A stretch of 64,000 bases of DNA from contig JAPPFD010000011.1 in NCBI GenBank assembly GCA_028823995.1, positions 1 to 64,000 on the forward strand, in the 5' to 3' direction. Origin of the DNA: a bacterium. Lineage in GTDB: Bacteria > Actinomycetota > Acidimicrobiia > Spongiisociales > ZC4RG35. The position numbers and the translations under genes are program-made. Numbering within the stretch: position 1 is the stretch's first letter; every line of letters begins with the position of its first letter. Shown piece after piece: positions 29,315-50,396 of this stretch. The notes beneath the pieces were generated by a model. The model saw only the letters and a list, made by a program, of their open reading frames with translations. It had not been told where the DNA came from and ran no database searches.

Positions 29315-29333
29315 TGCCGCCTGGCAGGTCCCC

Positions 29334-30335: not shown

Positions 30336-30386
30336 ATTGGGGACCGACTCCCTCGGTTCGGTTGTGGAATCCTGGCTTCGGTGTCT

Positions 30387-30502
30387 CTACCCGCCTCGTT
30401 CAGCCATCAACCTTCGCACAGCAGGGACCAGTTCCTGAGGGATCTCCATCACCGTTCCTTCGGAACGCTCAAAGCAGCTTCGTCCTCGGCAACTGCTTCA
30501 TC
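30387..30502 (-). pseudogene. Relic of a small antitoxin-like protein (copy A, truncated and frameshifted)
   Basis: Reading leftward, the DNA encodes DEAVAEDEAA, then after a one-base frameshift in a T-run FERSEGTVMEIPQELVP and a tail ending AERGG before TAG. This matches the C-terminal half of a small family often found beside toxins (acidic AEDEAAFE segment, then MEIPxELVPxVR). The N-terminal half is absent. The T-run has three T where the second copy at 32713-32909 has four, which locates the frameshift. It lies immediately after the LLM gene and before a converging LLM gene. Confidence 0.65.
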
Positions 30503-30560
30503 GTGGGATGTCGGTGACGGAGATCGCAACGTGGTGTACCGGTCCCAGGGGCATGGCGAG

Positions 30561-34269: not shown

Positions 34270-35856
34270 TCAGGTTCTCTGGCTCCTCAGCGAGCGGCCT
34301 GGATTGGCGTCGGTTCGCCGAGAGTCTTTGATAACGGGCACGCCGTTGACGATCACGTGGGGAATGCCGGTGGGGAACTGGCAGGGATTCGGCAAAGAGG
34401 CCGCGCTGCCCACCGAATCGGGGTCGAACACCACGAGGTCGGCTTGGGCACCGTCTCGGATTATGCCGCGGTCTGGAATGCCTAGCAGGCCAGCAGGGTA
34501 GGAGGTCATCTTGCGGATGGCTTCTTCGATCGTCATCAGGCCTTCATCTCTTACGAGGCTGCCGAGCATTTTGGGGAAGGTGCCATAGGTTCGCGGGCTT
34601 GGTGCTGAGCCGACTAGCAGGGCATCGCTTCCGACGGCGCACAGGTCGTGGCTGAGCACTTGGCGCACCGTTTTCATGTTGTTGGAGTCGTGGCCGACAT
34701 AGGATAGGCCGAGGCTCTCCGCCAGGAGCAGGTCACAGAGGGCATCCAGTGGATCGAGGCCCATGGCAGCGGCGATCTGGTCCAGGGGGACACCCTCGAA
34801 ATGTCGGTAGTCGGGGTGTTCGAATCCGCTTAGATGCCAGTCGCCGGGGTATCTCCAACGGCTCTGGCGGGGATCTGTCTCTTTGCGCATCCTGGCTCGG
34901 GAGGTGGGACTGGAGAGATGCTCGAGAATCCGGTCCGGTCCGCCTTCCTCGATCCAGTCGGAGACGGCCACGATCGCCCGCGTGCCTCCTTGGTTGTAGG
35001 GGTAGGCGTCGAAGGACACTTGGAGACCCTCCTGTCGGGCTTTCTCTACCAAGTCAAGGAGATCGTGGAACTCGCCTTCCTTCTTGGAGAGCGATGCGTA
35101 GTGGGAGATGTGCAATGGGACGCCGGTGCGGCGGGTGACTTCGATCACCTCCCGGAATGGGTCGATGAAGGTGGGGCCTGCTCCGTAACGGACGTGGGAC
35201 ACGTGTATGGCGCCGTTCCGGGCCGCCACCTCGGCCAGTTTGGTGAGTTCGTCGATGTCGGCGAAGCTGCCGGGCGGGTAGGTCAGGCCTGTCGAGAAGC
35301 CGAAGGCGCCTTGGTCGAGGCCTTCCTGCAACAGATGTCTTTGTGCGGCCACGTCCTCGTCGGTAAGTTCGACGTCCGACCAGCCGACGGTGGCTACTCG
35401 CAGTGGCGTATTGCCGATGACATAGGCGATGTTCACGGGTACCGACCTGTCGTAGAGGTCGAGGTATTCGGCCACCGTGTTCCACGCCAGTCCCGGCGGG
35501 CGGCGTCCGTCGAGGCCGGCGTTCATGACGCTCCAGCCGTCGAGGTCGTGGGAGGACGGGAAGGGTGCGTAGGAGTTGCCGTCGACTCCGATCAACTCGG
35601 TGGTGACGCCCTGCCGCACCTTCGGCTCATGGGCTGGGTCGGCCAGGATCGCCATCGTCGAGTGAGCGTGCATGTCGATGAAACCGGGGCATACGGCCAG
35701 GCCGCTGGCGTCGATCACGCGACCGGCTTCCAGGTGGCTCGTGTCGCCGCGGAAGAGGACGAGGGTGTCTTCATCAACGCCGACGTCCGCTTTGATCCAC
35801 GATGATCCGGTCCCGTCGTAGACGCGGCCGCCGCGGATCAGCAGGTCGAGGCTCAT
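34270..35856 (-). CDS. N-acyl-D-amino-acid deacylase (D-aminoacylase) family amidohydrolase
   Basis: A 528-residue amidohydrolase. The metal-binding HxH motif is GFIDMHAHST near residue 60. Later conserved segments are TGLTYPPGSFAD, IHVSHVRYGAG, the His of LHISHYAS and the Asp of AVGSDALLVG. Length and segment order match D-aminoacylases, which remove acyl groups from N-acyl-D-amino acids; related members act on other amides. ATG 35856 overlaps the hydantoinase stop by ATGA. It is the last gene of the 16-gene operon. With hydantoinases upstream it may finish release of an amino acid from a cyclic ureide or amide. Confidence 0.87.
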   Translation of the reverse strand: MSLDLLIRGGRVYDGTGSSWIKADVGVDEDTLVLFRGDTSHLEAGRVIDASGLAVCPGFIDMHAHSTMAILADPAHEPKVRQGVTTELIGVDGNSYAPFPSSHDLDGWSVMNAGLDGRRPPGLAWNTVAEYLDLYDRSVPVNIAYVIGNTPLRVATVGWSDVELTDEDVAAQRHLLQEGLDQGAFGFSTGLTYPPGSFADIDELTKLAEVAARNGAIHVSHVRYGAGPTFIDPFREVIEVTRRTGVPLHISHYASLSKKEGEFHDLLDLVEKARQEGLQVSFDAYPYNQGGTRAIVAVSDWIEEGGPDRILEHLSSPTSRARMRKETDPRQSRWRYPGDWHLSGFEHPDYRHFEGVPLDQIAAAMGLDPLDALCDLLLAESLGLSYVGHDSNNMKTVRQVLSHDLCAVGSDALLVGSAPSPRTYGTFPKMLGSLVRDEGLMTIEEAIRKMTSYPAGLLGIPDRGIIRDGAQADLVVFDPDSVGSAASLPNPCQFPTGIPHVIVNGVPVIKDSRRTDANPGRSLRSQRT

Positions 35857-37214
35857 GCCTGTCCGGACCGAGCCAGATACCGGCCGTTCTCGGGTCCAAC
35901 CAACTCGCCGTCCGAGAGGACCACCGAGCCGCCTCGTACCACGAGACTCGGCATGCCATTGGTGGAGATTGACTCGTACAACGAGTAACCGGCGGCCGGT
36001 TCGAGATTGTGGTGGGTTAGCCGGGTGTCGGGCTGCTCCTCGGGAATGACCACCAGGTCCGCATCCGAGCCTTCGGCCAGGATGCCTTTCTGCGGGTAGA
36101 TCCCGTAGATCTGCGCCGCTCTGGTGGAGGTGACTTCTGCAAGGCGCTCGATGGTCAACTGTCCTTTCTTGAAACCCTCGCTGAAGGCGAGAGGCAGCAT
36201 GATCCCGGTGCCGGCGATGCCGCCGAAAGTGGCGTCCAGGATGTTGTCGGTTGCCAGCTTCACTCCGAGGGTCTTGGGCGAGTGGTCCGAGGAAAGGTGA
36301 TCGATCCGGCCGTCGGCCAGGGCGTCCCACAGGGGAGCGAGGTGCCCGGAATCTCGCAGGGGCGGGCCGACCTTGCCCAGCGGTCCCCGTTCGAGGACCT
36401 CGTCGTTGGTGAGCAGCAGGTAGTGGATCTGCGTCTCGGCAGTCACCGATGCTCCGGAGTTCTTCAGAGTCCCCAGCATGGCCGCTCCCGGCGCCGAGGT
36501 GCAGTGGACGAAGTGGAGACGAGAACCGGTCAGGGCTGCGAACACGGCGGTGCGGTTCATGCCTTCGGGTTCCAGTTCGACCGGCTGGCTGCGCAGGTAG
36601 CTGGCGTTGGTGACTCCCCGCCTGCGTTCCACGGCGTCCAGGTAGTCGATGGCGCCGCCGTTTTCGGCGTGGACCAGGGTGACGCCTCCCACCGCCGCCG
36701 CCCGCTCCATGAGGAGGCAGATCGAAGCGTCGTCCAGCATCTGCCCCCGCTGGGCGTAGGCGACCATCGTCTTGAAGGAGGTGACTCCGACCTGGGCGCT
36801 TCGAGCCACGGTCCCTTCGATGTCATCACCGGGCAGAAAGAGGGCGTTGATGAAGTAGTCGGCGGCGACGCCGTCACGCTCCCGCTCGATCTCCGCCTCG
36901 ACGGATTCGGCGACCGTGGTCACCGGGGTTCGCTGCGCGTAAACCCCGATGGTGGTCACGCCGCCCCGAAGGGCCGCACGCGCCGCCTGGTGCAGGTCGT
37001 GCAGGAGCGGTTCGGTGATGGAGTGTCCGCCCAGAGAGACGTGGAGGTGTGGGTCCACGGCGCCGGGCAGCACCCAGGCGCCGTTCACGTCGGCGATAGT
37101 CTCGCCTTCCAGGCCGGTTCCGATCTCTTCGATGACACCGTCCCGGAACGAGATGTCGCCTTCCAGGACGCCGTCCGCGGTGACCAGGCGTCCGTTGCGG
37201 ACTACTGTGGTCAT
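35853..37214 (-). CDS. Dihydropyrimidinase/hydantoinase-like cyclic amidohydrolase (1)
   Basis: A 453-residue binuclear metal amidohydrolase. The full ligand set is visible: HxH in DPHLHVS, carboxylated Lys in TSFKTMVAY, His in LVHAENG, His in HFVHCTS and Asp in SSDHSPKT. This is the pattern of dihydropyrimidinases, hydantoinases and allantoinases, which open cyclic amides. ATG 37214 overlaps the crotonase stop. It is one of two such enzymes in the operon and the two are only distantly alike, so they probably act at different steps or on different rings. Confidence 0.9.
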   Translation of the reverse strand: MTTVVRNGRLVTADGVLEGDISFRDGVIEEIGTGLEGETIADVNGAWVLPGAVDPHLHVSLGGHSITEPLLHDLHQAARAALRGGVTTIGVYAQRTPVTTVAESVEAEIERERDGVAADYFINALFLPGDDIEGTVARSAQVGVTSFKTMVAYAQRGQMLDDASICLLMERAAAVGGVTLVHAENGGAIDYLDAVERRRGVTNASYLRSQPVELEPEGMNRTAVFAALTGSRLHFVHCTSAPGAAMLGTLKNSGASVTAETQIHYLLLTNDEVLERGPLGKVGPPLRDSGHLAPLWDALADGRIDHLSSDHSPKTLGVKLATDNILDATFGGIAGTGIMLPLAFSEGFKKGQLTIERLAEVTSTRAAQIYGIYPQKGILAEGSDADLVVIPEEQPDTRLTHHNLEPAAGYSLYESISTNGMPSLVVRGGSVVLSDGELVGPENGRYLARSGQA

Positions 37215-37957
37215 GCGTCTCCCAACCGGGCGGCGATCCGTTGCTGGGTGGCGGCCGACGTAACCGCCTCCAGGGTCGCAGCCCACGATTCCTCGTTCCA
37301 CGCCACGTCTCCGAGCGTGTTCAGGTGCGCCTTCATCGCCGCCAAGGCCGGGCCGTCAAGTGCGGCGATCTCTGCTGCAAGGTCCATCGCCGCGGCGTCG
37401 AGTTCGTCGGGGGAGTGGACCGAGCGGACGAAGCCAATCTGCTGGGCTTCGGCGGCGGTCAGTCGGCGGCCGGTCAGCAGCATGTCGCGAGCTAATGAGT
37501 CCCCGACCCCTCGGACCAAACGGGCGATGTCGCTTCGGGTGATGACGATCCCCAGGATGGCGGCCGGGATCGAGAACCAGGCTCGATCGGAGGCGATCCG
37601 GACGTCGCAGGCCGCCGCAACCTCGGTCCCGGCGCCTACCGCGGCGCCGCTGACGACGGCGATCACCGGCTTCGGGCAAGCCTCGATTGACGCCATGACC
37701 GACTCGACTCCCTCCAGTGATTCTCGCACAACCGCTGCGTCCGCCCCTCCGAACTGTTCGAGGTCGGCGCCTGCGCTGAACACCCGGTCACCGGTCGAGG
37801 TCACCAGGACAACCCGGACCGAGTCGTCTTCGGCGCACTCGCCCATCAGGCGGGCCATATCGCTCCACATTGTTGCCGACCAGGCGTGCTTGCGCTCCGG
37901 GCGGTCGATGGTCACCCGGGCCACGCCGTCATGGCGGGCCAGGCTCAGTTCGGGCAT
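37211..37957 (-). CDS. Enoyl-CoA hydratase/isomerase (crotonase family)
   Basis: A 248-residue crotonase-fold enzyme. Oxyanion-hole motifs are FSAGADLEQFGG near residue 60 and SGAAVGAGTEVAAACD near residue 105; the Glu of GAGTE occupies a position used for catalysis in some members. The long frame upstream belongs to the SDR in another frame. ATG 37957 overlaps the SDR stop by one base and gives MPELSLARHDGV, a normal family start. It probably hydrates or isomerises the CoA thioester made by the PaaK-like ligase of this operon. Confidence 0.88.
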   Translation of the reverse strand: MPELSLARHDGVARVTIDRPERKHAWSATMWSDMARLMGECAEDDSVRVVLVTSTGDRVFSAGADLEQFGGADAAVVRESLEGVESVMASIEACPKPVIAVVSGAAVGAGTEVAAACDVRIASDRAWFSIPAAILGIVITRSDIARLVRGVGDSLARDMLLTGRRLTAAEAQQIGFVRSVHSPDELDAAAMDLAAEIAALDGPALAAMKAHLNTLGDVAWNEESWAATLEAVTSAATQQRIAARLGDA

Positions 37958-38748
37958 CAGAACACCCCGCTGGCAGACGCTCCGTCCAACTGGATTGCCG
38001 ACCCGGTGACAGGAGAGGCGGCGTCCGAGCAGAGGTAGGCGATCGCCTCGGCCACGTCCTCGGGGGTTGTGAAACGACCCACAGGAACCCTCTCCTCCAG
38101 GTAGGCGGTCCGGAACTCCTCGTTGGTCATCCCGGCGTCTTTGGCCCAGACCTCGATGGCCTCCTCCATGCGATCGGTGGTCGTCAGTCCGGGATTCACC
38201 GCCATCACCCGGATGCCGTGCGGGCCTCCCAGTTCCGCCACCGACTTGGTGAAGTGGAGCAGGGCGGCGTTCAGCGAGCCGAGCACGTAGGCGGGTGAGG
38301 CCGAGCGCCCGGCCATCCCGACCACGTTGACGATCACGCCGCCTCCGCCCTCCTTCATGATTCCGAAGACCGCGCGGGTGCACCGAACGTAACCCATCAG
38401 CTTCAGGTCGATCGATGACATCCAGTCGCTGTCGGTGATCGCTTCGAGAGTGCCGAACGGCGAGGATCCGGCGTTGTTGACCAGGATGTCGATCCCGCCG
38501 AGGGCATCCGCTGCTTGTTCCACCACTCGACCAGGTGTGTCCGGCAGGGAGAGGTCGGCAACTATCTGGGCCACGTCCACTCCGTGGGTTTCGGCGATTT
38601 GGGCCCGCGCTTGGGACAACCTCGATTCGTTTCGGGCCACGAGCGCCAGACTCACCCCTTCGGAAGCCAGCCGATCGGCCGTTGCAAAACCGATGCCGGC
38701 GCTTCCTCCGGTGACCAGGGCCCGGCGGCCGCTGAGTCCTCGGGTCAT
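37957..38748 (-). CDS. Short-chain dehydrogenase/reductase with altered catalytic Lys
   Basis: A 263-residue SDR. The cofactor motif TGGSAGIG, NNAGSS, and the Tyr-containing SPAYVLGSLNAALLHFT are visible. The usual catalytic YxxxK reads Y-VLG-S here, so the Lys is replaced by Ser. This variant is seen in a subgroup of SDRs whose activity is less certain. ATG 38748 overlaps the cupin stop by ATGA. It probably oxidises or reduces a hydroxyl or keto group in the pathway, or has become a non-classical member. Confidence 0.87.
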   Translation of the reverse strand: MTRGLSGRRALVTGGSAGIGFATADRLASEGVSLALVARNESRLSQARAQIAETHGVDVAQIVADLSLPDTPGRVVEQAADALGGIDILVNNAGSSPFGTLEAITDSDWMSSIDLKLMGYVRCTRAVFGIMKEGGGGVIVNVVGMAGRSASPAYVLGSLNAALLHFTKSVAELGGPHGIRVMAVNPGLTTTDRMEEAIEVWAKDAGMTNEEFRTAYLEERVPVGRFTTPEDVAEAIAYLCSDAASPVTGSAIQLDGASASGVF

Positions 38749-39107
38749 TGGGGGTCCTCGAACACCATTGTCTGGTTGTGGCTGAAATTGACCCGGGGAG
38801 GCGAGAAGGCCTCGAGGGTGATACACGGATCTTCCGACGCCACCCGTCCACCGTGCTCGACGCCTGACGGAGCGTGGATCACCTGCCCCGGGCCGACGAT
38901 CCGCGTCTCCCCGTCCACTGTGAACTCGAGCTGTCCGGACAGCACGCAGATGATCTGTTCCTGGTGATGGGTGTGGAGGCCGAAATCGGTCCCAGGCGCC
39001 ATCTCGGCGCGGATCACCTGGACGTCCTTTCCGGTGACGTTCCACACGAAGTCTCCCGGGAATGCCTCGAACCCGTCCTGTTCGTTCCAATCGGTGAAGC
39101 TTGCCAT
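38745..39107 (-). CDS. Small cupin-domain protein
   Basis: A 120-residue single-domain cupin. Metal-binding motifs are GLHTHHQEQIICVLSG (His, His, Glu) and the second-motif His in APSGVEHGG. It opens MASFTDWNEQDGFEAF. AGGAG lies 6 bases before the ATG. Such proteins may be isomerases, dioxygenases or small-molecule sensors; which applies here is unknown. It sits between the metallo-beta-lactamase and the SDR with a 9-bp gap and an ATGA overlap. Confidence 0.87.
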   Translation of the reverse strand: MASFTDWNEQDGFEAFPGDFVWNVTGKDVQVIRAEMAPGTDFGLHTHHQEQIICVLSGQLEFTVDGETRIVGPGQVIHAPSGVEHGGRVASEDPCITLEAFSPPRVNFSHNQTMVFEDPQ

Positions 39108-39116
39108 GGCGTTCTC

Positions 39117-39887
39117 CTACTCGTAGTAGCCGTCCGGTGATTTGATGATGGTCTTCCACTGCTCGATGTCGTGCGCCACCAGGATGGTTGCGCCGTCGCG
39201 GTCTTCGAAGCCCTTGAGCCGAGCGAGAGACCTGATGGCTGCGAACTCGTCGGTGGTGGTCGGCGGCGGGAGGCCACGGTCGATGTTGTCCCGCCGGTAG
39301 GCCGCATCGCCGGTGAGCACGAACCGACCCGACGGCAGGTCGACCACCAGCGATTGGTGCCCGGGCGTGTGGCCGTCGGTCAACACCGCATGAACGCCCG
39401 GGACGACCTGGGCGTCGCCCTCGTGGTACCGGTAGGTGATCTCGGGGCGGTCGAAGTCCTTGCTGATGAATCCGGGCGCACCGAACCGGTCCGGGAACTG
39501 GGCCCACCTGCGCTCGGCCACCTGCAGATGCACCGTGGCGTCGGGGAAGAGGCGGATGCCGCCGGCGTGGTCCATGTGCAGGTGCGATACGACCACGTGT
39601 GCGACATCGGCGATGGCGATACCGGCCTCCGCCAGGCGCGCCAGCGGATGGTCGGCGTCTGACATCTCGAGTCGGAACGCCTTCGCCAGCCGTCCCCAGG
39701 TCCCCACCGGATCGGTGGCCGCATCCGGATCGCACCCCGTGTCGAACACCACCCAGCCGTCGTCGGTCTCGATTGCGAACATGGGAAGCGGGACGCCGAC
39801 CTCTTCGTTCGACCCGCCGAACTTGGTCCGGAACTCGGCCATGTAGCAGGTGCCGGTGGGCAGGACGAACATCCGGTGAGCGGCCAC
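39117..39887 (-). CDS. Metallo-beta-lactamase-fold hydrolase (lactonase-like)
   Basis: A 256-residue hydrolase with the zinc motif SHLHMDHAGG, then His in LTDGHTPGH, Asp in LTGDAAYRR and a final His in VAHDIEQW. The spacing resembles N-acyl-homoserine lactonases and related lactone-opening enzymes. GTG 39887 overlaps the upstream TAG by one base (TAGTG); no ATG is better placed, and the frame upstream is not coding. In this operon it may open a lactone or cleave a thioester. Substrate unknown. Confidence 0.85.
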   Translation of the reverse strand: MAAHRMFVLPTGTCYMAEFRTKFGGSNEEVGVPLPMFAIETDDGWVVFDTGCDPDAATDPVGTWGRLAKAFRLEMSDADHPLARLAEAGIAIADVAHVVVSHLHMDHAGGIRLFPDATVHLQVAERRWAQFPDRFGAPGFISKDFDRPEITYRYHEGDAQVVPGVHAVLTDGHTPGHQSLVVDLPSGRFVLTGDAAYRRDNIDRGLPPPTTTDEFAAIRSLARLKGFEDRDGATILVAHDIEQWKTIIKSPDGYYE

Positions 39888-41269
39888 TAATGCACCGGCA
39901 TGGCGTCGGGGGGAACGGTGACCAGGGTTCCGCGGTGGCTCGTGCCGCGGTCGACCTCGCCGTCCTCGTACAGCACGTGGCCTCCGGCGATTGTTATCCG
40001 GGGCCAACCCCGCATCACCATGCCCTCGAAGGGCGTGTAGTCCGAGTGTCCGTTGAGTACGTCCGCGTCGATGGTGACTTCCTTCTCGAGGTCGATCATC
40101 ACCAGGTCGGCGTCGCTGCCCACGGCGATAGTCCCCTTACGGGGCGAGGCTCCGATCAGGCGGGCGAAGTTCGCCGAAGTCACTTCCACCACCCGCTCCA
40201 GCGTCAGCCGTCCCTTGTTGACTCCCTCCGACAACAGGACGGGGAGGATCATGGTCATGCCGCCCGGGAGGCCGGGTCCGACGTCCCAGATGTTGCCCTG
40301 GCGGGTCGGCAGGTCGTAGTCGCAGTGGTCGGACCCCATCCAGTCGATGCTCCCGTCGGCGAGGCCGGCCCACAGCAATTCCTGGTCGGTCTTGGTCCGA
40401 AGCGGCGGGTTGACCTTGCCCCAGGTGCCCAGGGGCATGTCCATGTCCAGCACCAGATATTGGGGACAGGTCTCCATGTAGAGGGGCGGGTAGCGGTCTC
40501 TCCCCGCGCGGATGAGTTCGGGTCCCCGGCCGACGCTGGTGTGGATCACACAGAGCGGCGCCCCGGCGTTCTCGGCGAAGATCGAGGAGCGGATGATCGC
40601 CTCCTCCTCGGTGAAGTGGGGGCGGTGATTGCTCCAGGTGGCGGTGTCGGTGGCGTCCGGGTCGGCTGCTATGCCCAGTTCGCGGTTGTGGAGGATCACG
40701 TCGATGTTCTCGGCGTGGATCAGGGCCATGACGCCCGGGCGGGTGGCCACCTGGCGCATGCCCTCGAAGATCAGCCCGTCGTCGAGTCCCACTATGCCGT
40801 ACCCCGCTTCGGGTCCCTTCATGGCCATGTGGAACTTGTAGGAAGTGAGGCGCAGTTCGTCGACGGTCTCAGGGATCTCCCAGACCTGCTGGGCGTTGGT
40901 GACCAGGCCGTGAAAGCCCTGGTCTACGATGCTGTGCGCCTCGAGGTCGGCGACATGCTGGGCGTGGGTGTCCTTGAAGGAGCCGGGCGACAGCAGGTAG
41001 TGCCACATGGTCGTCACGCCCCCGGTCACCGCTGCGGCGCTCTCCTCCCGGCACGAGTCCGCATATGGCAGGATCACCCCGAGATGCACGTGCGCATCGA
41101 TGGCGCCGGGTATCACATAGGCGCCCTTGGCGTCGATGACCCGGTCGGCGGAGGGAGCGTCGCCCGGGGGAAGGAGCGCCTGGATGACTCCCTCGTTGCA
41201 ATGGACGGTGGCTCTTGTTTGACCGGCCGGGCTGACCAGGGTGGCGTCTTTGACCGTTAATGACGTCAT
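39887..41269 (-). CDS. Dihydropyrimidinase/hydantoinase-like cyclic amidohydrolase (2)
   Basis: A 460-residue amidohydrolase with HxH in DAHVHLG, carboxylated Lys in TSYKFHMAMKG, His in LIHAEN, His in VIHTSVG and Asp in GSDHCDYD. The pattern is that of the dihydropyrimidinase/allantoinase group. ATG 41269 overlaps the PaaK-like gene stop by ATGA. It is distinct from the other hydantoinase-like enzyme of the operon at 35853. Ring opening of a cyclic imide, ureide or lactam is likely. Confidence 0.9.
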   Translation of the reverse strand: MTSLTVKDATLVSPAGQTRATVHCNEGVIQALLPPGDAPSADRVIDAKGAYVIPGAIDAHVHLGVILPYADSCREESAAAVTGGVTTMWHYLLSPGSFKDTHAQHVADLEAHSIVDQGFHGLVTNAQQVWEIPETVDELRLTSYKFHMAMKGPEAGYGIVGLDDGLIFEGMRQVATRPGVMALIHAENIDVILHNRELGIAADPDATDTATWSNHRPHFTEEEAIIRSSIFAENAGAPLCVIHTSVGRGPELIRAGRDRYPPLYMETCPQYLVLDMDMPLGTWGKVNPPLRTKTDQELLWAGLADGSIDWMGSDHCDYDLPTRQGNIWDVGPGLPGGMTMILPVLLSEGVNKGRLTLERVVEVTSANFARLIGASPRKGTIAVGSDADLVMIDLEKEVTIDADVLNGHSDYTPFEGMVMRGWPRITIAGGHVLYEDGEVDRGTSHRGTLVTVPPDAMPVH

Positions 41270-42600
41270 GTCTCGTACACCTTCTCGATGATCCGGACCT
41301 TCTTGCGCCCGGGTGACGGATATGTGCCGAAGGATACGACCTCGACCCTCGCCCTGACCCTGCACATGTCGGAGATGGCCTGCGCCAGCTTGGACCGCAG
41401 TTCGTCGTCTTCATCGGCCGAGCGCTCCTCGCCTCGCTCCACCCGGACGTGCAGGGGACCGGGCCACGCGTACTCCGGCTCGTGCTTGATGATCCGGACC
41501 GAGCCGGAGGTGGCGGGCCGGAAGCCCAGGACGATGTCCTGGAGGGCGGTGGGGAAGACGTTGACCCCCTTGATGATCATCATGTCGTCGGTGCGCCCGA
41601 AACAGCGGATCTTGGGGGTGGTCCGCCCGCAGCAGCACTCGGTGTCGAGCACCTCGACGATGTCGCTGTGCCGGAATCTAAGCACCGGAGTCGCCTCCCG
41701 GTCGAGGTGGGTATAGACCAACTCTCCCGTCGCCCCCGTGGTGATCTCCACGGGGTCGCCGGCCCCGTCGATCAACTCCCAGTAGATGAACTCGTGGGCC
41801 ACGAAGTGCATGCCGCTCTGGTCCTCGCATTCGGCCCACATCACGGGGGAGAGGTCGGTGCCGCCCATCACCTCATGCATCTTCGCCCCCCAAAGCTCCT
41901 CTGCATGCCGGCGGAACTCCGGGATGCCGCCCCCGGGCTCGCCGCCCACGTAGATCCGCTCGATCGACAGTTCCCGGGCGTCGACGCCCAATACGTCTTT
42001 GGCCTGGTTGCCCAGGTACACGGCGAAGTTCGGGGTGGCGACCAGCCCGTTGGGACTCAGGTCGGAAATGGTGTGGAGGAGCCACGTGGTCCCCGGCTCG
42101 GCGCCCGCCGGGATGCACGCCGCCCCCAGGGCTTCGAGGCCTTGGATGACCGGCACGCCGCCCACCCAGCAGCGGGACATGCCCAGAGCCTGCAGGACCC
42201 GGTCGGAGGGGCGGAAGCCGTGCGCCCAGAGTGTCCGGCGGGTGATCTCGGCCCAGTTTGCTCGGTCGCGGGCGGTGAGGGCGACATAGGAGGGGCGTCC
42301 GGTCGTCCCCCCGGATGCCTGGAATTGAACGATGTCTTCCGGGTCGGCGGCGAGATGGTACCCCAACGGGGGTCTCGCCGCCAAGGACTTGCGGATTTCA
42401 TCCTTCACCGTGAAGGGAACCCGGGTCAGGTCCTCGACGCGCCTCACCGAGTCGGGCCCGAGCCCGGCGGCGCGCATCTTCTCCTGGTAGAAGGGGGATC
42501 TTGCCCAGAGGTATGCCCACTGTGCGGCCAGGCGCTCGCTCTGGATCGCCCGGATCTCGGCGGGCGCCAGGCCTTCGATGGCTGCGCCGAGTTCAGCCAT
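41266..42600 (-). CDS. Phenylacetate-CoA ligase (PaaK)-like adenylate-forming enzyme
   Basis: A 444-residue ANL-superfamily ligase of the PaaK branch. The phosphate-binding loop is ASGGTTGRPSYVAL and the adenylate motif is MGGTDLSPVMWAE. The C-terminal domain carries CCCGRTTPKIRCFGRTDDM followed by KGVNVFPTALQDIVL. The family joins aromatic or related carboxylic acids to CoA with ATP. Its presence with a crotonase and an SDR implies that the pathway passes through CoA thioesters. It overlaps the upstream LLM gene by 8 bp. Confidence 0.9.
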   Translation of the reverse strand: MAELGAAIEGLAPAEIRAIQSERLAAQWAYLWARSPFYQEKMRAAGLGPDSVRRVEDLTRVPFTVKDEIRKSLAARPPLGYHLAADPEDIVQFQASGGTTGRPSYVALTARDRANWAEITRRTLWAHGFRPSDRVLQALGMSRCWVGGVPVIQGLEALGAACIPAGAEPGTTWLLHTISDLSPNGLVATPNFAVYLGNQAKDVLGVDARELSIERIYVGGEPGGGIPEFRRHAEELWGAKMHEVMGGTDLSPVMWAECEDQSGMHFVAHEFIYWELIDGAGDPVEITTGATGELVYTHLDREATPVLRFRHSDIVEVLDTECCCGRTTPKIRCFGRTDDMMIIKGVNVFPTALQDIVLGFRPATSGSVRIIKHEPEYAWPGPLHVRVERGEERSADEDDELRSKLAQAISDMCRVRARVEVVSFGTYPSPGRKKVRIIEKVYET

Positions 42601-43597
42601 TGGCCATCGCCGGTGAGCGGTCTGCGAAGGCGGCGCCGAGCGCCAGCACCGCGTCGGGGTCGAGCGCGTGATGAGCCGCCACCCTGTCCAGGCCTGCATC
42701 GCCCAGCCGGGACAGGCGTCCGGCTACATCGTCGGGAGTGCCGGCCACCGCCAGGAGGTCTACCAAGTCATCGGTGAGAACCGCGGCAGCCGCTTCCAAG
42801 CCGTCGGTCGCCTTTGCCTCCAGGATCTGAGCGCGGACCGACAGGAGGTCGTCTCGGGATATGTCCGTCCCGACCAGACGGGGCGAGACGTCGGGGATCT
42901 CCGCCAGGTAGTACGCCACCGACCTTCGCACCCGATCCCGGGCGTCGGCGGGATCGTCGGCCACCGCGGTGAGCACCAGTGCGCCCAAGGAGTAATCCTC
43001 CCTGGAGCGCCCGGCCTTGGCCAGCGCCGCGTCGATCAGGTCGGCTCGTGAGGCAATGAATGTCGGGGAGCACATCACCCCCAGCAGCGCTCCGTCGTAG
43101 TGGGCGGCCGACATCCGGAGCGACTGGGGGCCCATCGAACCCAGGTAGATCGGTGTGGGCGGCGGGGGAGAGGAGAGTCGCGCCCCGTTGTAGGCGGTGT
43201 CCCCCCTGAGGAGAGCGCGGGTGGCCGTGGCGGCGTCCCGCAGGCCGGTCACCTGGTTGGCCGGGATGGTTCCCAGCCGGGACGAGCCTCCATGCGCCAC
43301 CCCGTATCCAAGCGCGAACCGGTCGCCGTATCGCTCGGTGAGAGATGACAACTCCATCGCCACCGATGCCGGGTGACGGATGAAAGGGCTCAGGACGCCG
43401 AAGCCGATCCTCACCGAGGAGGTGGCCTCGGCGGCTGCCGCGGCGATGGTGAAGACTCCCCGATAGAAGTGCTGCTCGGCGATCCAGATGGTCCCGAAAC
43501 CGCCCCGTTCCGCCGCCCGGGCCACGGAGACGATCTCTTCCACCGTCCTGGCGTTGTCCAGGCCTACGTCGAAGCTCGGTACGGATCGGACCGTCAT
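42593..43597 (-). CDS. LLM-class oxidoreductase
   Basis: A 334-residue luciferase-like enzyme with ARAAERGGFGTIWIAEQHFY near residue 30, IGFGVLSPFIRHPASVAMEL, and a cofactor half containing TPIYLGSMGPQSLRMS. ATG 43597 overlaps the small membrane-protein stop by ATGA. It is one of two LLM enzymes in the operon and they are divergent. Known LLM enzymes in catabolism include RutA, which opens the uracil ring, so oxidative ring opening is a reasonable but unproven role here. Confidence 0.87.
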   Translation of the reverse strand: MTVRSVPSFDVGLDNARTVEEIVSVARAAERGGFGTIWIAEQHFYRGVFTIAAAAAEATSSVRIGFGVLSPFIRHPASVAMELSSLTERYGDRFALGYGVAHGGSSRLGTIPANQVTGLRDAATATRALLRGDTAYNGARLSSPPPPTPIYLGSMGPQSLRMSAAHYDGALLGVMCSPTFIASRADLIDAALAKAGRSREDYSLGALVLTAVADDPADARDRVRRSVAYYLAEIPDVSPRLVGTDISRDDLLSVRAQILEAKATDGLEAAAAVLTDDLVDLLAVAGTPDDVAGRLSRLGDAGLDRVAAHHALDPDAVLALGAAFADRSPAMANG

Positions 43598-43728
43598 TGG
43601 GGCCACAACGATGCAACGTAGAGGAGCAGGGATATCGCGCCCAGCACCACCCATAAGAATCGGGTCCTGGCGCGGCGGCACTTGTAGCACCCGAAGGGAA
43701 CGGAGCAGTCGCAGCGTTGGGCGGTCAT
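43594..43728 (-). CDS. 44-residue Cys-rich single-helix membrane protein
   Basis: The ORF reads MTAQRCDCSVPFGCYKC, then a basic RRARTR stretch, then one hydrophobic helix (FLWVVLGAISLLLYVASLW). Four Cys at positions 6, 8, 14 and 17 form two pairs that could bind zinc. Its start overlaps the amidohydrolase stop by ATGA, and its stop overlaps the LLM start by ATGA, so it is embedded in the operon's translational coupling. The basic stretch before the helix predicts a cytoplasmic N-terminus. It has no family I recognise. It could anchor or regulate pathway enzymes or the importer. Confidence 0.8.
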   Translation of the reverse strand: MTAQRCDCSVPFGCYKCRRARTRFLWVVLGAISLLLYVASLWPQ

Positions 43729-44975
43729 GGCCTGGTGATGCGGGTCTCACCCCCGATCATGACCCGCTTGATCCGATGACGCTCCTGGAGGATGCGGACA
43801 TCGTCGAGCGGGTTGCCGTTGATGATCAGAAGGTCGGCGACCTTGCCTGCCTCGAGCGTCCCGAAGTCGTCGTCGATCCGGAAGAATTCGGCGTTGCCCC
43901 TGGTGGCGGTGACCAGGGCGTCCATGTTGGAGAGGCCGAGACGGGTCTGCACCTCCAGTTCGTAGGCCTCCTCACCGTGCGGATCGGCCGGGGTGCCCAG
44001 GAAGTCCGACCCGATGGCCCGCTTGACGCCGATCGACTGGGCGCGGGGGAGGGTGTCTGCGTAGGAGTCGAGCGCCATCTGGCAGCGTTCGACGTACACC
44101 GGGTTGAGATCCAGGTCATCGGCACGTTCGACCGCCCGCGACAGGTACCCGACATTGGGATTCCAGGTGACGCCGTGGGTTGCCATCATCTCGAGGGTCT
44201 CTGTGTCGATCCAGTACCCGTGCTCGATCGAGTCGGCTCCCGCCTTGATGGCCCGCTGCATCCCGACGCACGACTCCCCGATGAGGGTGTTGCTGTGGCA
44301 GGAGAGGAGGGCCCCCACGTTGTGGGCGACGTGCGCCGCCGCCTCGATCTCGGCGCCGGTCCACGCCGATTCGGCGCGGATGAACGACGGGTCTATACCG
44401 CCGGTGACGCCCATCTTGATGTCGGTGGCGCCGCCGCGGATCTGCTCCCGAGCCGCCTTGGCCACCTCGCCCACGCCGTCGGCCAGTCGGACGAACCCGG
44501 GAGGCTCGGGACCCTGCATCCACTCCAGGCGGATGAACGGCAGGTCCGGTATTCCCCCGGTCTCGGCGATGAACCGCCCCACCGCCCGCATGCGGGGGCC
44601 GTTGACCTTGCCTTCCTCTATCGCCTTCTTCACCTGGAGGCTGTTGTCGCTCCCGCAGTCCCGGATGAGGGTGAAACCGGCCCCCAGTATCTCCTGGACC
44701 TCGATCGCCGAGCGGATGGCATGGAGCATGGGGGACTCCATGGCCCATGAAAGGAAGTCATAGCCCGGGATGCCGAACAGGTGGAGGTGGGAGTCGATCA
44801 GGCCGGGCAGCACATGGGCCCCGGCCGCGTCGATCACCTCGGCGCCCAGTGGGACCTCCACACCGGCGCCGACGGCGGTGATGCGGTCGTCCTCGATGAC
44901 CAGACTTGCCGGGCCGTATGGCTCGGCCCCTGTCCCGTCGAAGATCGAGGCGTTGGTGATTGCTGTGGTGCCCAT
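43725..44975 (-). CDS. Amidohydrolase (imidazolonepropionase/prolidase-like)
   Basis: A 416-residue amidohydrolase. HxH lies in GLIDSHLHLFG, a probable carboxylated Lys in TDIKMGVTGG, His in LLSCHSN, His in SIEHGYW and Asp in IGSDFLG. This ligand arrangement is typical of the Xaa-Pro/Xaa-Arg dipeptidase and imidazolonepropionase-like group. ATG 44975 has AGAGGAG 7 bases upstream. It is the third ring- or amide-cleaving enzyme of the operon. Confidence 0.88.
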   Translation of the reverse strand: MGTTAITNASIFDGTGAEPYGPASLVIEDDRITAVGAGVEVPLGAEVIDAAGAHVLPGLIDSHLHLFGIPGYDFLSWAMESPMLHAIRSAIEVQEILGAGFTLIRDCGSDNSLQVKKAIEEGKVNGPRMRAVGRFIAETGGIPDLPFIRLEWMQGPEPPGFVRLADGVGEVAKAAREQIRGGATDIKMGVTGGIDPSFIRAESAWTGAEIEAAAHVAHNVGALLSCHSNTLIGESCVGMQRAIKAGADSIEHGYWIDTETLEMMATHGVTWNPNVGYLSRAVERADDLDLNPVYVERCQMALDSYADTLPRAQSIGVKRAIGSDFLGTPADPHGEEAYELEVQTRLGLSNMDALVTATRGNAEFFRIDDDFGTLEAGKVADLLIINGNPLDDVRILQERHRIKRVMIGGETRITRP

Positions 44976-44986
44976 GCGCTTCTCCT

Positions 44987-45976
44987 CTAGCCCTGCGGCG
45001 CCAGTTCCTCGATGCCGCGTTCGATGTCGCCGATGGCGGTGATGATCGGGTGCTCGACTCCGGCGTCGATGTAGCGTTGCATGCCCTCGAGGCAGTCGTC
45101 CCGGGTGCCGTTGAGGGTGAGATCATCGATCACCTCGTCGCTGATGAGGTGCTGGCCGCCCTCGCCTCCTCCCTCGTCCACGGCGGCCACCAACTGCTTC
45201 CAACCGGCGCCGTCGGGTCCCCACACCGAGGTCCGCCTGGTGATGTCGGGAAGGCGGGCCAGGTACAGGGCCAGCAGGGGACGCAGGAAGGCCCGTGCTG
45301 CCTCCTTGGAGTCGTCGACGCAGGCCACCAGCATCATTCCAATCTCCACGTCGTCGAGGGTGCGGCCGCCCCGCTCGGCGCCTTTGTGGAGGTGTTCCAG
45401 CGCCCAGGTGACGTATTCGGTGCCCAGGAACGCATTGAGCGAAGCGCCTTCGGCGATCTCACCGGTCAACTGGCATGCCAGCGGGCCGGTCGGGCCCAGC
45501 CACACGGGGAGGTCGCGGCGCACCGGCTCGAAGTCGAGTTCGGCGTTGTCGAGGTGGACCATCTCCCCGTGGTAGTCGAAGTGGGAACCGTGGGCGTTCC
45601 ACACCTTCCGGCAGGCCTCCACGTACTCGCGGAGCGCCTTGAGCGGCTTCACGAAGTTGATGCCCTGGGCTTTGATGAGCACCCGGGAACCGGCGCCGAT
45701 GCCGGCTACGAACCGGCCTTCGGAGAGCTCGTCGAGAGCGGCGAAGGTGGTGGCCATCAGAAGCGGGCTGCGGGTGAAGATCGGGCAGACGCTCGGGCCG
45801 ATGGTTATGCGCTCGGTCACCGCCGCGGCCGCCGCGCAGGCGGTGACGCCGTCGCGGGAGAAGTTGTGCTCGGCGTACCACACCGAGTCGTATCCGAGTT
45901 CCTCCACCCGCTTGGTCAGCCGGACGGTCTCCGGTAAGGGGGTGTTCTGCAAGAGGCCGATGCCGGTCTTGATCAT
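44987..45976 (-). CDS. LLM-class oxidoreductase
   Basis: A 329-residue luciferase-like enzyme. It opens MIKTGIGLLQNTPLP, contains RVEELGYDSVWYAEHNF, a cofactor-binding PVWLGPTGPLACQLTGEIAEG, and AGIGAGSRVLIK. ATG 45976 has AAGGAGAG upstream. It follows the importer genes directly (19-bp gap), so it may carry out the first enzymatic step after uptake. F420 or FMN cofactor is expected from the family. Confidence 0.88.
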   Translation of the reverse strand: MIKTGIGLLQNTPLPETVRLTKRVEELGYDSVWYAEHNFSRDGVTACAAAAAVTERITIGPSVCPIFTRSPLLMATTFAALDELSEGRFVAGIGAGSRVLIKAQGINFVKPLKALREYVEACRKVWNAHGSHFDYHGEMVHLDNAELDFEPVRRDLPVWLGPTGPLACQLTGEIAEGASLNAFLGTEYVTWALEHLHKGAERGGRTLDDVEIGMMLVACVDDSKEAARAFLRPLLALYLARLPDITRRTSVWGPDGAGWKQLVAAVDEGGGEGGQHLISDEVIDDLTLNGTRDDCLEGMQRYIDAGVEHPIITAIGDIERGIEELAPQG

Positions 45977-45995
45977 GTTCTCTCCTTGGGTTGTT

Positions 45996-46778
45996 TCAGT
46001 CGAGGTAGGGGCGGAGTATGACTTTCTGTAGGCGTTGGAAAAGGGCGCCGAAGATCAGGCCGAGGACGCCGACCATCAGGATCGCTCCGTACATCTCGGC
46101 GGGGAAGAGGCTGCGGCGCATGAAGAGGATGAACCAGCCGAGCCCGTCGGTGGAGAGGATGAGCTCGGACGCCACCATCAGTACCAGCGCCACGCCGACC
46201 GCCTGGCGCGCGCCGGCCACGATCTGGGGCACAGCCAGGCCGATCACGGCCCGTCGCAGCACCAGCGTCTCGGTGCCGCCGAAACTTCTCACCACGTCTG
46301 GCAACAGCGCCTGCTTGGCGGTTCGGACGCCGAAGATGGTATTGATCGCCACGAAGATGAACGACGCCCAGGCGATCACGATGATGCGGGACAGGTCACC
46401 GATGCCGACCACCAGCACCAGCACGGGAAGGAAGAGGATGACCGGGATGGGCCGGAGGAACTCGAGAAGCGAGGTCGCCACCGATCCGGGCTTGTTCCAC
46501 CATTCGACGACCACTCCGAACACGACGCCGACGACCACTCCGATGATCCAGCCTGCGACCGCCCGGTAGACGCTCTTTCCGATCTGGAACAACAGGTTGT
46601 CGCCCGACCGGTAGGGAGGGTCGGTGAAGGCGGTGAAGGTGTCGGCGAACACCTGTGTCGGCGGGGGGAAGAGGAACTGGTTGACCATCTCGGCGCGGCT
46701 CACGTACTCCCAGGCGCCGAAGATGGCGGCCAGCACGACGAGGGTCTTCAACCACCGGGTCCACACCGACGCGGTCAT
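45996..46778 (-). CDS. ABC transporter permease (SsuC/TauC/ThiX type) (1)
   Basis: A 260-residue membrane protein with about six helices and a binding-protein-dependent transport domain. The EAA-loop is around DVVRSFGGTETLVLRRAV, and the final helix region reads ILMVGVLGLIFGALFQRLQ. ATG 46778 overlaps the ATPase stop by ATGA. It works with the second permease at 47569, the ATPase between them and the lipoprotein at 48349. Confidence 0.9.
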   Translation of the reverse strand: MTASVWTRWLKTLVVLAAIFGAWEYVSRAEMVNQFLFPPPTQVFADTFTAFTDPPYRSGDNLLFQIGKSVYRAVAGWIIGVVVGVVFGVVVEWWNKPGSVATSLLEFLRPIPVILFLPVLVLVVGIGDLSRIIVIAWASFIFVAINTIFGVRTAKQALLPDVVRSFGGTETLVLRRAVIGLAVPQIVAGARQAVGVALVLMVASELILSTDGLGWFILFMRRSLFPAEMYGAILMVGVLGLIFGALFQRLQKVILRPYLD

Positions 46779-47572
46779 GCCTGCCCTCTCCCGCCTTGAA
46801 GGAGGCTCCAGACCTCGTTGTATCTTGCCCGGAACTGGTCGGAGGCCGTGAACTCCTCATAGCTTGAGGTCCGCTCGCCCTGCTCGAAATCGCTGAGCAC
46901 GCGAGCCGGGCGGTGATCGAGGACCACGGTGCGATCGCCGAGATAGAGCGACTCCTCGATGTCGTGGGTGACGAACAGGACCGTTCGGTCGAGGGTCTCG
47001 AGGATCCTGCGGAGCTCTTCTTGCATGACGCGCCGGATCTGCGCGTCGAGCGATCCGAACGGCTCGTCCATCAAGAGCACGTCGGGCTCGTAGGCGAGCA
47101 CGCGGGCCAGTTGCACCCGCTGCTGCATGCCGCCCGAGAGTTCCCGCGGATAGGCCGTCTCGAAACCTTGGAGACCGACCATCTCTATGTAGCGGGCGGC
47201 CGCCTCGGCTCGCTCGGTCCGGGAGGCGGCGCCCTCGATCTCCAGGCCGAACTCGACGTTCTTCTGGACGGTCCTCCAGGGCGCAAGCGCGTTGGCGTAG
47301 TCCTGGAAAACGAAGCCCATACGGGGCTTGGGAGAGCTGGGCTCGAAGCTGATGGACCCACTGGTCAACGGTGTCAACCCGTCGATCATCTTCAAAATCG
47401 TCGACTTGCCGCAGCCCGAAGGCCCGACGATCGTCACCAGTTCACCCGGCCGGAAGGAGAGGTCGAGGCTGTCGATGATCCTGAGGTCCTCGTCGTGGCC
47501 GCGCCGGGGGTAGGTCTTGGTGACGCCCCTCAGGTGGATGGCCGGGCTGGAGGAGGTCTTCTGGCCGGTCAT
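46775..47572 (-). CDS. ABC transporter ATP-binding protein (SsuB/TauB type)
   Basis: A 265-residue ATPase. It has Walker A GPSGCGKST, signature LSGGMQQR, Walker B VLLMDEPFG and His switch VTHDIEES. The start is either ATG 47572, which overlaps the permease stop by ATGA, or ATG 47596, which has GGAGG 8 bases upstream and adds eight residues. The former is given because ATGA coupling is the rule in this operon. It energises the two permeases on either side. Confidence 0.9.
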   Translation of the reverse strand: MTGQKTSSSPAIHLRGVTKTYPRRGHDEDLRIIDSLDLSFRPGELVTIVGPSGCGKSTILKMIDGLTPLTSGSISFEPSSPKPRMGFVFQDYANALAPWRTVQKNVEFGLEIEGAASRTERAEAAARYIEMVGLQGFETAYPRELSGGMQQRVQLARVLAYEPDVLLMDEPFGSLDAQIRRVMQEELRRILETLDRTVLFVTHDIEESLYLGDRTVVLDHRPARVLSDFEQGERTSSYEEFTASDQFRARYNEVWSLLQGGRGQA

Positions 47573-48327
47573 GCCAGAGAGGTCTCCGACCACCATGGGA
47601 AGAGCCTCCGCTGTGCCTCCTCAAGTACGCGGAAGGCCACGTACCCGATGACTGCGATCAAGGCTATGGAGGCATACATCCGTCCGAACAGGGCGTTGCT
47701 CTGCGTGCGGAGGATGTAGAAGCCGAGCCCGGACAGCCCGATCACCATGTCGGCGACCACGATCACGATCAGCGCCACCGACACGTTCTGTCGAAGGCTC
47801 GAGAGGAAGTAGGGGAGGAGACTCGGTATCCCGACCTTGCGGAGCACCTTCACCTCGCCGGCGCCGAAGCTTCGGGCCGCGTCCTGCAAGGTGTTGGGGA
47901 TGTGTTTCACGCCGGAGATCACGTTGATCACAGCCAGGAAGAAGCACCCCCACGCCACGGCGAAGGCGCCCACCAGGAACGAGTCGGCGAGTATCAGGAG
48001 CGCCATGGGGACTATGGCGACCGCCGGGATGGCCCGGAAGAAGTCGAGCGGCCCGCTCAACCAGGAGTCAACCGAGGCATACCTGCCCACCGCCATCCCG
48101 ATGACAACGGCTGCGCCGAACCCGACCGCGTAGCCGACCAGGGCGGTCCACATGCTTTCGATCGTGGCGGAGCCCAGGTTCGTCCAGTCCTCGATCCCCG
48201 CCGCCAGGACCTCGCCGGGTGGCGGGATGAACTCGGAGTTGACGAACCCGGTGGCCGTCGCCGTCACCCACGCTGCGAGGATGACGGCGACGGCAGTGAG
48301 TCCAGGGAACCGCAGGGCTCCTGTCAC
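47569..48327 (-). CDS. ABC transporter permease (SsuC/TauC/ThiX type) (2)
   Basis: A 252-residue membrane protein with about six helices and an EAA-loop at QDAARSFGAGEVKVLRKVG. It is homologous in plan to the permease at 45996, so the channel is probably a heterodimer, whereas most SsuC/TauC systems are homodimers. GTG 48327 has AGGAAA upstream. It follows the binding lipoprotein with a 21-bp gap. Confidence 0.9.
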   Translation of the reverse strand: MTGALRFPGLTAVAVILAAWVTATATGFVNSEFIPPPGEVLAAGIEDWTNLGSATIESMWTALVGYAVGFGAAVVIGMAVGRYASVDSWLSGPLDFFRAIPAVAIVPMALLILADSFLVGAFAVAWGCFFLAVINVISGVKHIPNTLQDAARSFGAGEVKVLRKVGIPSLLPYFLSSLRQNVSVALIVIVVADMVIGLSGLGFYILRTQSNALFGRMYASIALIAVIGYVAFRVLEEAQRRLFPWWSETSLA

Positions 48328-48348
48328 GTTATTTCCTGTTTGGGTCGG

Positions 48349-49569
48349 TTAGGGCAGTTGGCTCGGGTCCCAGGGGAAGAAGCGGCCGTTCTCGACCATC
48401 TCGTCCTCAGAGAACGGGAGGTCCGAGATGAAGGCTCCGACGTCCAGCCCTTCTCCGAGCAGGTCCGCCTCGACCATCATGTCCGCAACACGCTGCATCT
48501 GTTCGACGAGGTTCTCCGGCCAGGTCACGTACATGTGCGGCGGGTTGTTCCTCTGCGCTTCAGCCGGGACACCCGAGATGGCCACGGAGATGTCCAGGGC
48601 CTCGGCCGGGTTGTCGACGATCCACGCGGAGGCGTCGCGGATGGCCAGCGCCCAAGCCCTGATGGTGTTGGGGTTCTCCGCCACGAACTCGGGAGAGGCC
48701 GCCATCGGGAACATGCCGGCGCCGCGGGGTCCCAGCATCTCGGGGATGCCGTCCGCGCCGCCGATGTAGGGGTCGCCGATCGAGCGGAAGCCGTTGCCCG
48801 CGGTCTGGCCATAGGGGATGATGCCCGTGATGAACGGGTAGATCATGTAGCCGACGTCGATCTCGCCCGACGTGAGAAGATCCGGGTGCGCGCCCCAGAA
48901 CGCCTCGATGAGTTCGACGCTGTCGGGATCGACGCCCACCTGGAGCAGGATCGAGGTGAGGAATGCCTCTTCGTTCGACCCTCGGGCAATCACGCCGATG
49001 CGGGCGCCTTCCATGTCTGCGACCGACTGGATCGGGGAGTCCTCGGTGACGATCAGCCGATGCGTGCTGTAGTCGACTCCGTCAACCACTGCGTAGTACG
49101 CATGGGTGGTGATGAACTTGAGTTGCTGCCCGCGCTCGGCCAGAGAGAAGGCCAGAGGCCAGCTCGTGTAGCCCATGTGAGCCTCACCGGACAATGCCGC
49201 CTCGGTGGCGCGGCCTGCGCCGCCCTCGAAGGCGAGGATCTCCGGATTCAGCCCGTATTCGGCGAAGAAGCCCTTTTCCTGGGCCACGTAGAGGGGTAGG
49301 AACTGGGCGAGGGTGGCCGGCATCACCTTGATGTCCGGCGTCTCGGGCGTCATATCGACCATGGCCTCGGTAGTGGTCGTGGTCGGCGCCGCCGTCGTAG
49401 TGGGCGCTGCAGTAGTGGTGGGAGCGGCCGTGGTGGCCGGCGCTGCGGTCGTGGTTGGGGCCGCCGTGGTGGCGGGTGCCTCTTCGGCGTCGTCGGCTCC
49501 ACACGCGGCTAACACGAGTGCGAGGGCGGCGAGAAGTACCAACGGGCCTCTGTTCCGGATCCTGAGCAT
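48349..49569 (-). CDS. NMT1/THI5-like substrate-binding lipoprotein
   Basis: A 406-residue precursor. The signal peptide ends LVLAAC. It is followed by about 45 residues of Ala/Thr/Pro repeats (units such as AAPTTT), then an NMT1/THI5/SsuA-type domain with LPLYVAQEKGFFAEYGL and ARIGVIARGSNEEAF. Domains of this type bind thiamine precursors, riboflavin, sulfonates, taurine or other small heterocycles and acids. ATG 49569 has AAGGAG upstream. It is the first gene of the 16-gene operon and defines its substrate entry point. Confidence 0.92.
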   Translation of the reverse strand: MLRIRNRGPLVLLAALALVLAACGADDAEEAPATTAAPTTTAAPATTAAPTTTAAPTTTAAPTTTTTEAMVDMTPETPDIKVMPATLAQFLPLYVAQEKGFFAEYGLNPEILAFEGGAGRATEAALSGEAHMGYTSWPLAFSLAERGQQLKFITTHAYYAVVDGVDYSTHRLIVTEDSPIQSVADMEGARIGVIARGSNEEAFLTSILLQVGVDPDSVELIEAFWGAHPDLLTSGEIDVGYMIYPFITGIIPYGQTAGNGFRSIGDPYIGGADGIPEMLGPRGAGMFPMAASPEFVAENPNTIRAWALAIRDASAWIVDNPAEALDISVAISGVPAEAQRNNPPHMYVTWPENLVEQMQRVADMMVEADLLGEGLDVGAFISDLPFSEDEMVENGRFFPWDPSQLP

Positions 49570-49600
49570 GCTCTCTCCTTATTAGATGAAATCAAACGCA

Positions 49601-49620
49601 AATGCGAACGAATGCGACTG
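49601..49620. promoter_or_regulatory. Tandem 10-bp repeats upstream of the 16-gene operon
   Basis: AATGCGAACG is followed directly by AATGCGACTG, 32-51 bp before the lipoprotein ATG. One repeat per helical turn could be a regulator-binding site. The operon promoter must lie in 49570-49785, since the next gene upstream ends at 49786. Confidence 0.3.
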
Positions 49621-49785
49621 AACTTGGCTCGGAGTCTAAGTCACCAGGGCAGTGTCAGGGTGGGTAAGACGCGAAATTCTCGCGGCCAGAAAGCGGGCTC
49701 CCAGCCACGAATATGACTCGTTTCCGACTGTTGACGGTTGGGAAAGACCCACACTCCTAGACGAGGATGTCGGGCGCATCCTGCT

Positions 49786-50169: not shown

Positions 50170-50396
50170 CGGTTTTCCCCCTTTTCTGGGGAATAGCATA
50201 GACCACTTTTGGAGGGGAACCGGCGAAGTCGGCCATCACGGTTCCCGTTTTCGCCGAGCCTCCCAGAGGACTTTGACCTGCCTTTGAAGACCCTCAACTG
50301 CTTGGTACAGCGCATCGCCAGGACGAGGTGCCAGGATGAGGTCGGGGGTGTCTCTACCATTGCGGGGGTGACCCGCACCTAGACAGAGGAATGTGC

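Follow-up and report, generated by a model that had tools for sequence, protein, structure and literature searches.

Several described systems invite comparison with the locus considered here, an operon lying within a 64,000-nucleotide stretch of DNA (the window) from an uncultured bacterium of the class Acidimicrobiia. The Pyd route of reductive pyrimidine catabolism, like hydantoin utilisation, resembles it in opening a ring with an enzyme of the dihydropyrimidinase fold and then cleaving an amide; the Rut pathway (RutA-RutG) does so in placing a luciferase-fold enzyme in an N-heterocycle operon. The closest architecture encountered is that of clusters in the haloarchaea Halomarina BND7 and Halorubrum ezzemoulense, in which a luciferase-like (LLM) enzyme stands beside a hydantoinase-like hydrolase of the dihydropyrimidinase fold and CoA chemistry, together with isochorismatase-like and LeuCD-like proteins and a CoA lyase/transferase. 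The marine Chloroflexi of the SAR202 group likewise carry many LLM paralogues: their expansions of FMN/F420 LLM enzymes have been proposed to serve in the breakdown of resistant organic matter, as Baeyer-Villiger oxygenases acting on alicyclics (PMC5395668).

Set against each of these, the operon deviates. In comparison with Pyd, LLM enzymes replace dihydropyrimidine dehydrogenase and the operon is devoid of a carbon-nitrogen hydrolase; it adds a CoA ligase, a lactonase and a prolidase-like enzyme, and its two dihydropyrimidinase-fold hydrolases, HYD1 and HYD2, fall under the dihydropyrimidinase cut-off. In comparison with Rut, its LLM enzymes are Mer-like, genes of the RutB and RutC type are absent, and an ABC importer replaces the RutG permease. 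The haloarchaeal clusters, whose hydrolases are 33-38% identical to those of the operon, differ by an isochorismatase-family amide step and by CoA transferase and hydratase genes, and are without PaaK, lactonase and D-aminoacylase-like genes. Unlike the SAR202 expansions, the LLM genes of the operon sit in a single genus-specific operon with amide hydrolases. Judged by membership, the operon lies outside the Rut, Pyd and hydantoin-utilisation systems. The earlier note knew of no described pathway with this combination of genes, and none was found in the literature searched; within a kind already known, the catabolic operon, the combination is an unusual one.

The operon is real as a coupled gene set. 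Fifteen large ORFs and one of 44 aa fill positions 34270-49569, all on the minus strand (Table 1). In transcription order the junctions are +21, -4, -4, +19, +11, -4, -4, -8, -4, -1, +9, -4, -1, -4 and -4 bp: 11 of the 15 are overlaps, eight of these being 4-bp ATGA overlaps, and the largest gap is 21 bp. The earlier count of 16 minus-strand genes with gaps no larger than this is exact once the 44-aa ORF is included, and the family labels given then are right at the level of superfamilies (Pfam matches), although none of the operon enzymes scanned reaches an NCBIfam cut-off. The 16 genes are presumably carried on one transcript.

Table 1. Operon genes in order of transcription, followed by the adjoining divergent gene and the leader (window positions)
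Feature	Position	Strand	Evidence
NMT1/THI5-like lipoprotein, ABC substrate-binding protein, 406 aa	48349..49569	-	PF09084 1.3e-25
ABC permease 1, 252 aa	47569..48327	-	PF00528 7.2e-18
ABC ATPase, 265 aa	46775..47572	-	PF00005 4.1e-30; 4-bp overlaps at both ends
ABC permease 2, 260 aa	45996..46778	-	PF00528 2.3e-8
LLM1, Mer-like luciferase-like enzyme, probably F420-dependent, 329 aa	44987..45976	-	PF00296 1e-63
Amidohydrolase, prolidase/ochratoxin-hydrolase type, 416 aa	43725..44975	-	PF01979 3e-36; 8ihq 2.3e-45
CxC...CxxC single-helix membrane peptide (predicted), 44 aa	43594..43728	-	sister alignment
LLM2, Mer-like luciferase-like enzyme, 334 aa	42593..43597	-	PF00296 2.7e-49; Mer model 136 bits
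PaaK-like AMP-forming acyl-CoA ligase, 444 aa	41266..42600	-	PF00501, PF14535; 4r1l 7.9e-57
HYD1, dihydropyrimidinase-fold hydrolase nearest L-hydantoinase, 460 aa	39887..41269	-	1gkr 4.4e-60
Metallo-beta-lactamase-fold lactonase-like enzyme, 256 aa	39117..39887	-	PF00753 3.1e-25; 9khq 1.6e-41
Small cupin, 120 aa	38745..39107	-	PF07883 3.6e-19
SDR, PRK06125 type, 263 aa	37957..38748	-	PF13561 8.6e-46; PRK06125 239 bits (cut-off 261)
Crotonase-family protein, 248 aa	37211..37957	-	PF00378 3.6e-46
HYD2, dihydropyrimidinase-fold hydrolase nearest D-hydantoinase/allantoinase, 453 aa	35853..37214	-	1k1d 1.2e-59
D-aminoacylase-like amidohydrolase, altered metal site, 528 aa	34270..35856	-	3gip 6.5e-70
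LLM3, divergent Mer-like gene adjoining the operon	50391..51416	+	PF00296 1.2e-57; Mer model 155 bits
Leader upstream of the operon (candidate promoter/operator)	49570..49720	-	alignable in four genus genomes; sequence further upstream diverges

That the arrangement exceeds chance follows from three observations: sister genomes share the gene order, every large gene has a dN/dS well under 1, and variation in the 44-aa ORF is concentrated at third codon positions. The 15 large genes all follow one order across six genomes of the genus (that of the window, G000, and five congeners), some being cut by contig ends; retention in relatives, which had been proposed as a check, thus holds within the genus. 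The operon is complete in G005, and contig ends truncate it in G001, G003 and G004; G002 has all 15 large genes, with a gene for a 426-aa AAA ATPase inserted between those of the SDR and the crotonase (L035:15424-16704) and the downstream genes intact. Three comparisons, made without the D-aminoacylase-like gene of G004 (a fragment), give dN/dS of 0.03-0.22 for every large gene, a measure by which these genes are under purifying selection. In the permease 1 gene of G005 (L031:4901-5653), at a point where the sequence diverges locally, a TGA interrupts the frame at about codon 33, perhaps through an assembly fault or as the mark of a pseudogene.

The smallest gene (43594-43728; MTAQRCDCSVPFGCYKCRRARTRFLWVVLGAISLLLYVASLWPQ) is joined by ATGA overlaps to the preceding amidohydrolase gene and the following LLM2 gene, and its product is a Cys-rich peptide with a single predicted membrane helix. 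(A technical note: ORF lists with a floor of 55 aa omit this gene, leaving an apparent hole of 127 bp between the amidohydrolase and LLM2 genes. An operon of 15 genes with a 127-bp gap was rejected when alignment of the sister genomes revealed the ORF; an N-terminal extension of LLM2 across the gap was rejected as well, because LLM2 directly abuts the amidohydrolase in G002, which is without the 44-aa gene, and because the gap codes in a different reading frame.) Length and all four Cys are kept in five species, and changes fall mostly at third codon positions (31, as against 16 at first and second positions, in four non-independent pairwise comparisons with G000); on this comparative evidence the ORF is a real gene, and an example, within a coupled operon, of one missed by a length-floored ORF list. 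The peptide has no match in Pfam, and among 99 relatives searched its significant matches are confined to five members of the genus, the window genome included, with the next best at E 0.011.

At the head of the operon, an NMT1-type importer with two permeases, as originally proposed, is borne out (PF09084, PF00528 twice and PF00005), and the direction of transport would be inward. The binding lipoprotein offers little by which to guess its ligand: its nearest NCBIfam entry is the SsuA family (71 bits, cut-off 163.5), its other matches are distant, and its predicted structure (pLDDT 39.8) is too poor for use.

The best solved relative of LLM1 is Mer, at 2.9e-41, as against an E value of 6e-4 for RutA; for both LLM1 and LLM2, Mer models give the top NCBIfam scores, and the best F420 model reaches 136-175 bits where FMN-type models stay below 50 bits. 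The nearest characterised relative is F420-dependent for LLM1 by PDB and NCBIfam, and for LLM2 by NCBIfam. LLM3 behaves in the same way, with F420 models, that of Mer included, far above the FMN models; a divergent LLM gene adjoins the operon in all four sister genomes that cover the place (L031, L033, L034, L035). The genome probably makes F420, since cofH, the F420 gene searched for, scores 473.5 bits against a cut-off of 374.1, and we infer that LLM1 and LLM2 use it. A review of F420 enzymes names this group luciferase-like hydride transferases, with roles in oxidation or reduction (PMC8498797). The comparison with RutA-type oxidation drawn in the earlier note does not survive: RutA is not the closest homologue, and LLM2 also lies closest to Mer. 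A pathway of the RutA sort, in which FMN-dependent LLM oxygenation opens the ring and the hydrolases come after, can appeal to the luciferase fold common to LLM enzymes and to RutA as a weak match, but the gap in E values and bit scores between the two cofactor types, and an operon without RutB-like and RutC-like genes, make it very improbable. (Another technical note: the 28 LLM copies of this genome, a high number, are close to what other genomes of the family hold, and LLM enrichment was not counted as evidence.)

HYD1 and HYD2 have the fold that the label "hydantoinase-like ring openers" implied, and both keep the metal motifs: in HYD1 all six ligands of the fold (H60, H62, K145, H185, H243, D314) are invariant in six species, and in HYD2 the motifs are conserved. 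Neither passes TIGR02033, the dihydropyrimidinase model (cut-off 393 bits; HYD1 275, HYD2 253), while another gene of the same genome, serving as positive control, scores 564; by this standard neither is a dihydropyrimidinase. The 564-bit gene adjoins that of a carbon-nitrogen hydrolase beyond the window (contig C34, L059:11782-14062), and in G004 and G005 a dihydropyrimidinase and carbon-nitrogen hydrolase pair stands just upstream of the operon. HYD1 and HYD2 being below the cut-off, and a gene well above it lying beside a carbon-nitrogen hydrolase elsewhere, the standard reductive pyrimidine route is probably separate from the operon. An operon for degradation of pyrimidines or plain hydantoins, of the reductive Pyd type, would explain the fold shared by HYD1 and HYD2; with both under the cut-off, the standard route probably present already elsewhere in the genome and no carbon-nitrogen hydrolase in the operon, it is barely plausible.

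Three further hydrolases accompany HYD1 and HYD2. The amidohydrolase, whose metal residues (H63, H65, K187, H227, H252, D324) are invariant in six species, groups with prolidase-like and ochratoxin-hydrolysing enzymes. The D-aminoacylase label holds for the superfamily, with two His ligands (H221, H252) and the catalytic D411 kept, but not for the rest of the active site: D92 replaces the Cys metal ligand, as Asp also does in a paralogue, and A254 replaces the carboxylate-binding Lys (in PpOngB, the subtype V D-aminoacylase reference, these are Cys97, a zinc ligand, and Lys254; PMC12017989). The lactonase-like enzyme contains the HxHxDH motif, as HLHMDH, scores below the AttM/AiiA cut-offs (169 versus 390 and 138.5 versus 375), and has an N-acylhomoserine lactonase (9khq) as its solved relative. 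These affinities, to quorum-quenching lactonases and to the ochratoxinase group, are what one would expect if the operon served not nutrition but detoxification, inactivating a metabolite of host or competitor (a cyclic peptide, a lactone signal or a mycotoxin-like amide), and one member of the genus does inhabit a metabolite-rich sponge; an importer of its own and a CoA ligase are more in keeping with nutrition, and we consider detoxification quite unlikely.

The CoA ligase has its AMP-binding domains and is far from PaaK proper (TIGR02155, 204 bits versus a cut-off of 646). Enoyl-CoA hydratases use two catalytic glutamates, and the canonical SDR catalytic motif is YxxxK. The crotonase keeps the first glutamate (GTEVA), while the second has become Ala (FSIPAAILG in place of FGQPEI); the SDR reads YVLGS where YxxxK is expected, its lysine missing. 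The families named for the crotonase/SDR finish are present, but with canonical catalytic residues lost from both proteins a beta-oxidation ending is doubtful.

Catabolic import with amide and lactone hydrolysis is the best reading of the operon. Its fuller form, a single catabolic operon taking an N-heterocycle from import through F420 hydride transfer and ring opening to CoA activation, seems to us only slightly on the probable side, and the exact order of reactions, a conjecture, much less so: 1) The ABC importer would take up a small N-containing cyclic compound of ureide, imide or lactam type. 2) The F420-dependent LLM enzymes would put hydride onto it, or take hydride off. 3) HYD1 and HYD2 would open ring amides. 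4) The prolidase-like and D-aminoacylase-like amidohydrolases would cleave the amide bonds thereby exposed. 5) The lactonase-like enzyme would open a lactone or ester. 6) The PaaK-like ligase would join the resulting acid to CoA. 7) SDR, crotonase and cupin would supply finishing steps. Relative to the pathway sketched from the sequence at the outset, the coupled set, the importer, the many amide/lactone hydrolases and the catabolic logic stand; the RutA-type oxidation is lost and the crotonase/SDR finish weakened. A more specific version, tentative and doubtful as a whole, has F420H2-dependent LLM enzymes reducing an unsaturated ring compound (a cyclic ureide, imide or lactam) and paired L- and D-type hydantoinase-fold enzymes hydrolysing the products. 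Such a pathway would mirror reductive pyrimidine degradation but be adapted to some compound of the sponge environment, and the Cys-rich membrane peptide of 44 aa would be a new accessory to it.

Is it one pathway or two? Paralogues of HYD2 (44%) and the D-aminoacylase-like enzyme (58%) stand next to each other on contig C1 of the same genome, their order reversed, beside an LLM gene, a Dpp-type ABC system and another gene for a metal-dependent hydrolase. Recurrence of the pair beside a different importer supports its being a reusable module tied to uptake, in which a hydantoinase-fold enzyme and an amide deacylase work together. It also lends itself to the proposal that at least two catabolic modules, directed at different compounds, share one transcript (importer, LLM, amidohydrolase, CoA ligase and HYD1 on the one hand; HYD2 and the D-aminoacylase-like enzyme on the other), to which the AAA ATPase gene between SDR and crotonase in G002 adds weight. 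Apart from that insertion, however, all members of the genus keep the gene order, with tight overlaps, and this division of the operon is unlikely. (Contigs C1 and C4 of G000 share a stretch of some 20 kb, essentially identical and in opposite orientation, which is either a true duplication or redundant assembly.)

So far the operon is known from one Acidimicrobiia genus only; the sampling does not imply absence beyond the class. Strict thresholds were applied in the marker searches, and other phyla were covered by one limited scan and by plasmid collections. Among 149 relatives, HYD1 orthologues (at least 91% identity) are confined to the genus, the next best being 39% identical; neither HYD2 nor the amidohydrolase is matched beyond the window's own genome among 296 genomes of the phylum, a sample without the congeners; CoA ligase and lactonase find matches in the six genus genomes only, among 345 of the class, bar one 40% homologue of the CoA ligase; and the D-aminoacylase-like gene is matched in the genus only, among 247 class genomes. 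A non-exhaustive scan of the whole collection with two CoA-ligase peptide patterns returned the sister genomes and homologues of about 50% in Hoeflea and a Dehalococcoidia bin, in neighbourhoods without other operon enzymes, and plasmid collections yielded only homologues of 31-39%. G002 is bin76 from the marine sponge Aplysina aerophoba, of the Acidimicrobiia OM1 clade (MPNA00000000; PMC5649159). Finding the substrate would name a flow of nutrient or toxin between sponges and a symbiont genus, and would give Mer-like LLM enzymes a physiological role in Acidimicrobiia along with new ring-opening amide hydrolases.

The leader upstream of the operon is a candidate promoter/operator by its alignment among relatives. 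It contains no match to the sigma-70 consensus, a promoter/terminator scan gave no excess over shuffles, and Rfam has no match anywhere in the 64-kb window. Just upstream of the operon lies a glyoxalase/VOC-family gene (49786-50199, minus strand), where sister genomes align poorly. Elsewhere in the window, a second NMT1 importer is followed by AtuA-like, DUF4387, HyuB and HyuA genes (57426-62982, plus strand), the last two of the ATP-dependent hydantoinase/oxoprolinase type, making another cyclic-amide island; positions 23668-31538 hold a separate uptake/LLM island, in which one LLM gene comes after a Dpp-type ABC system and another lies on the opposite strand. Two paralogous genes of the phosphotriesterase family (3158-4405 and 8266-9426, minus strand) lie about 4 kb apart with ABC export-type genes between them.
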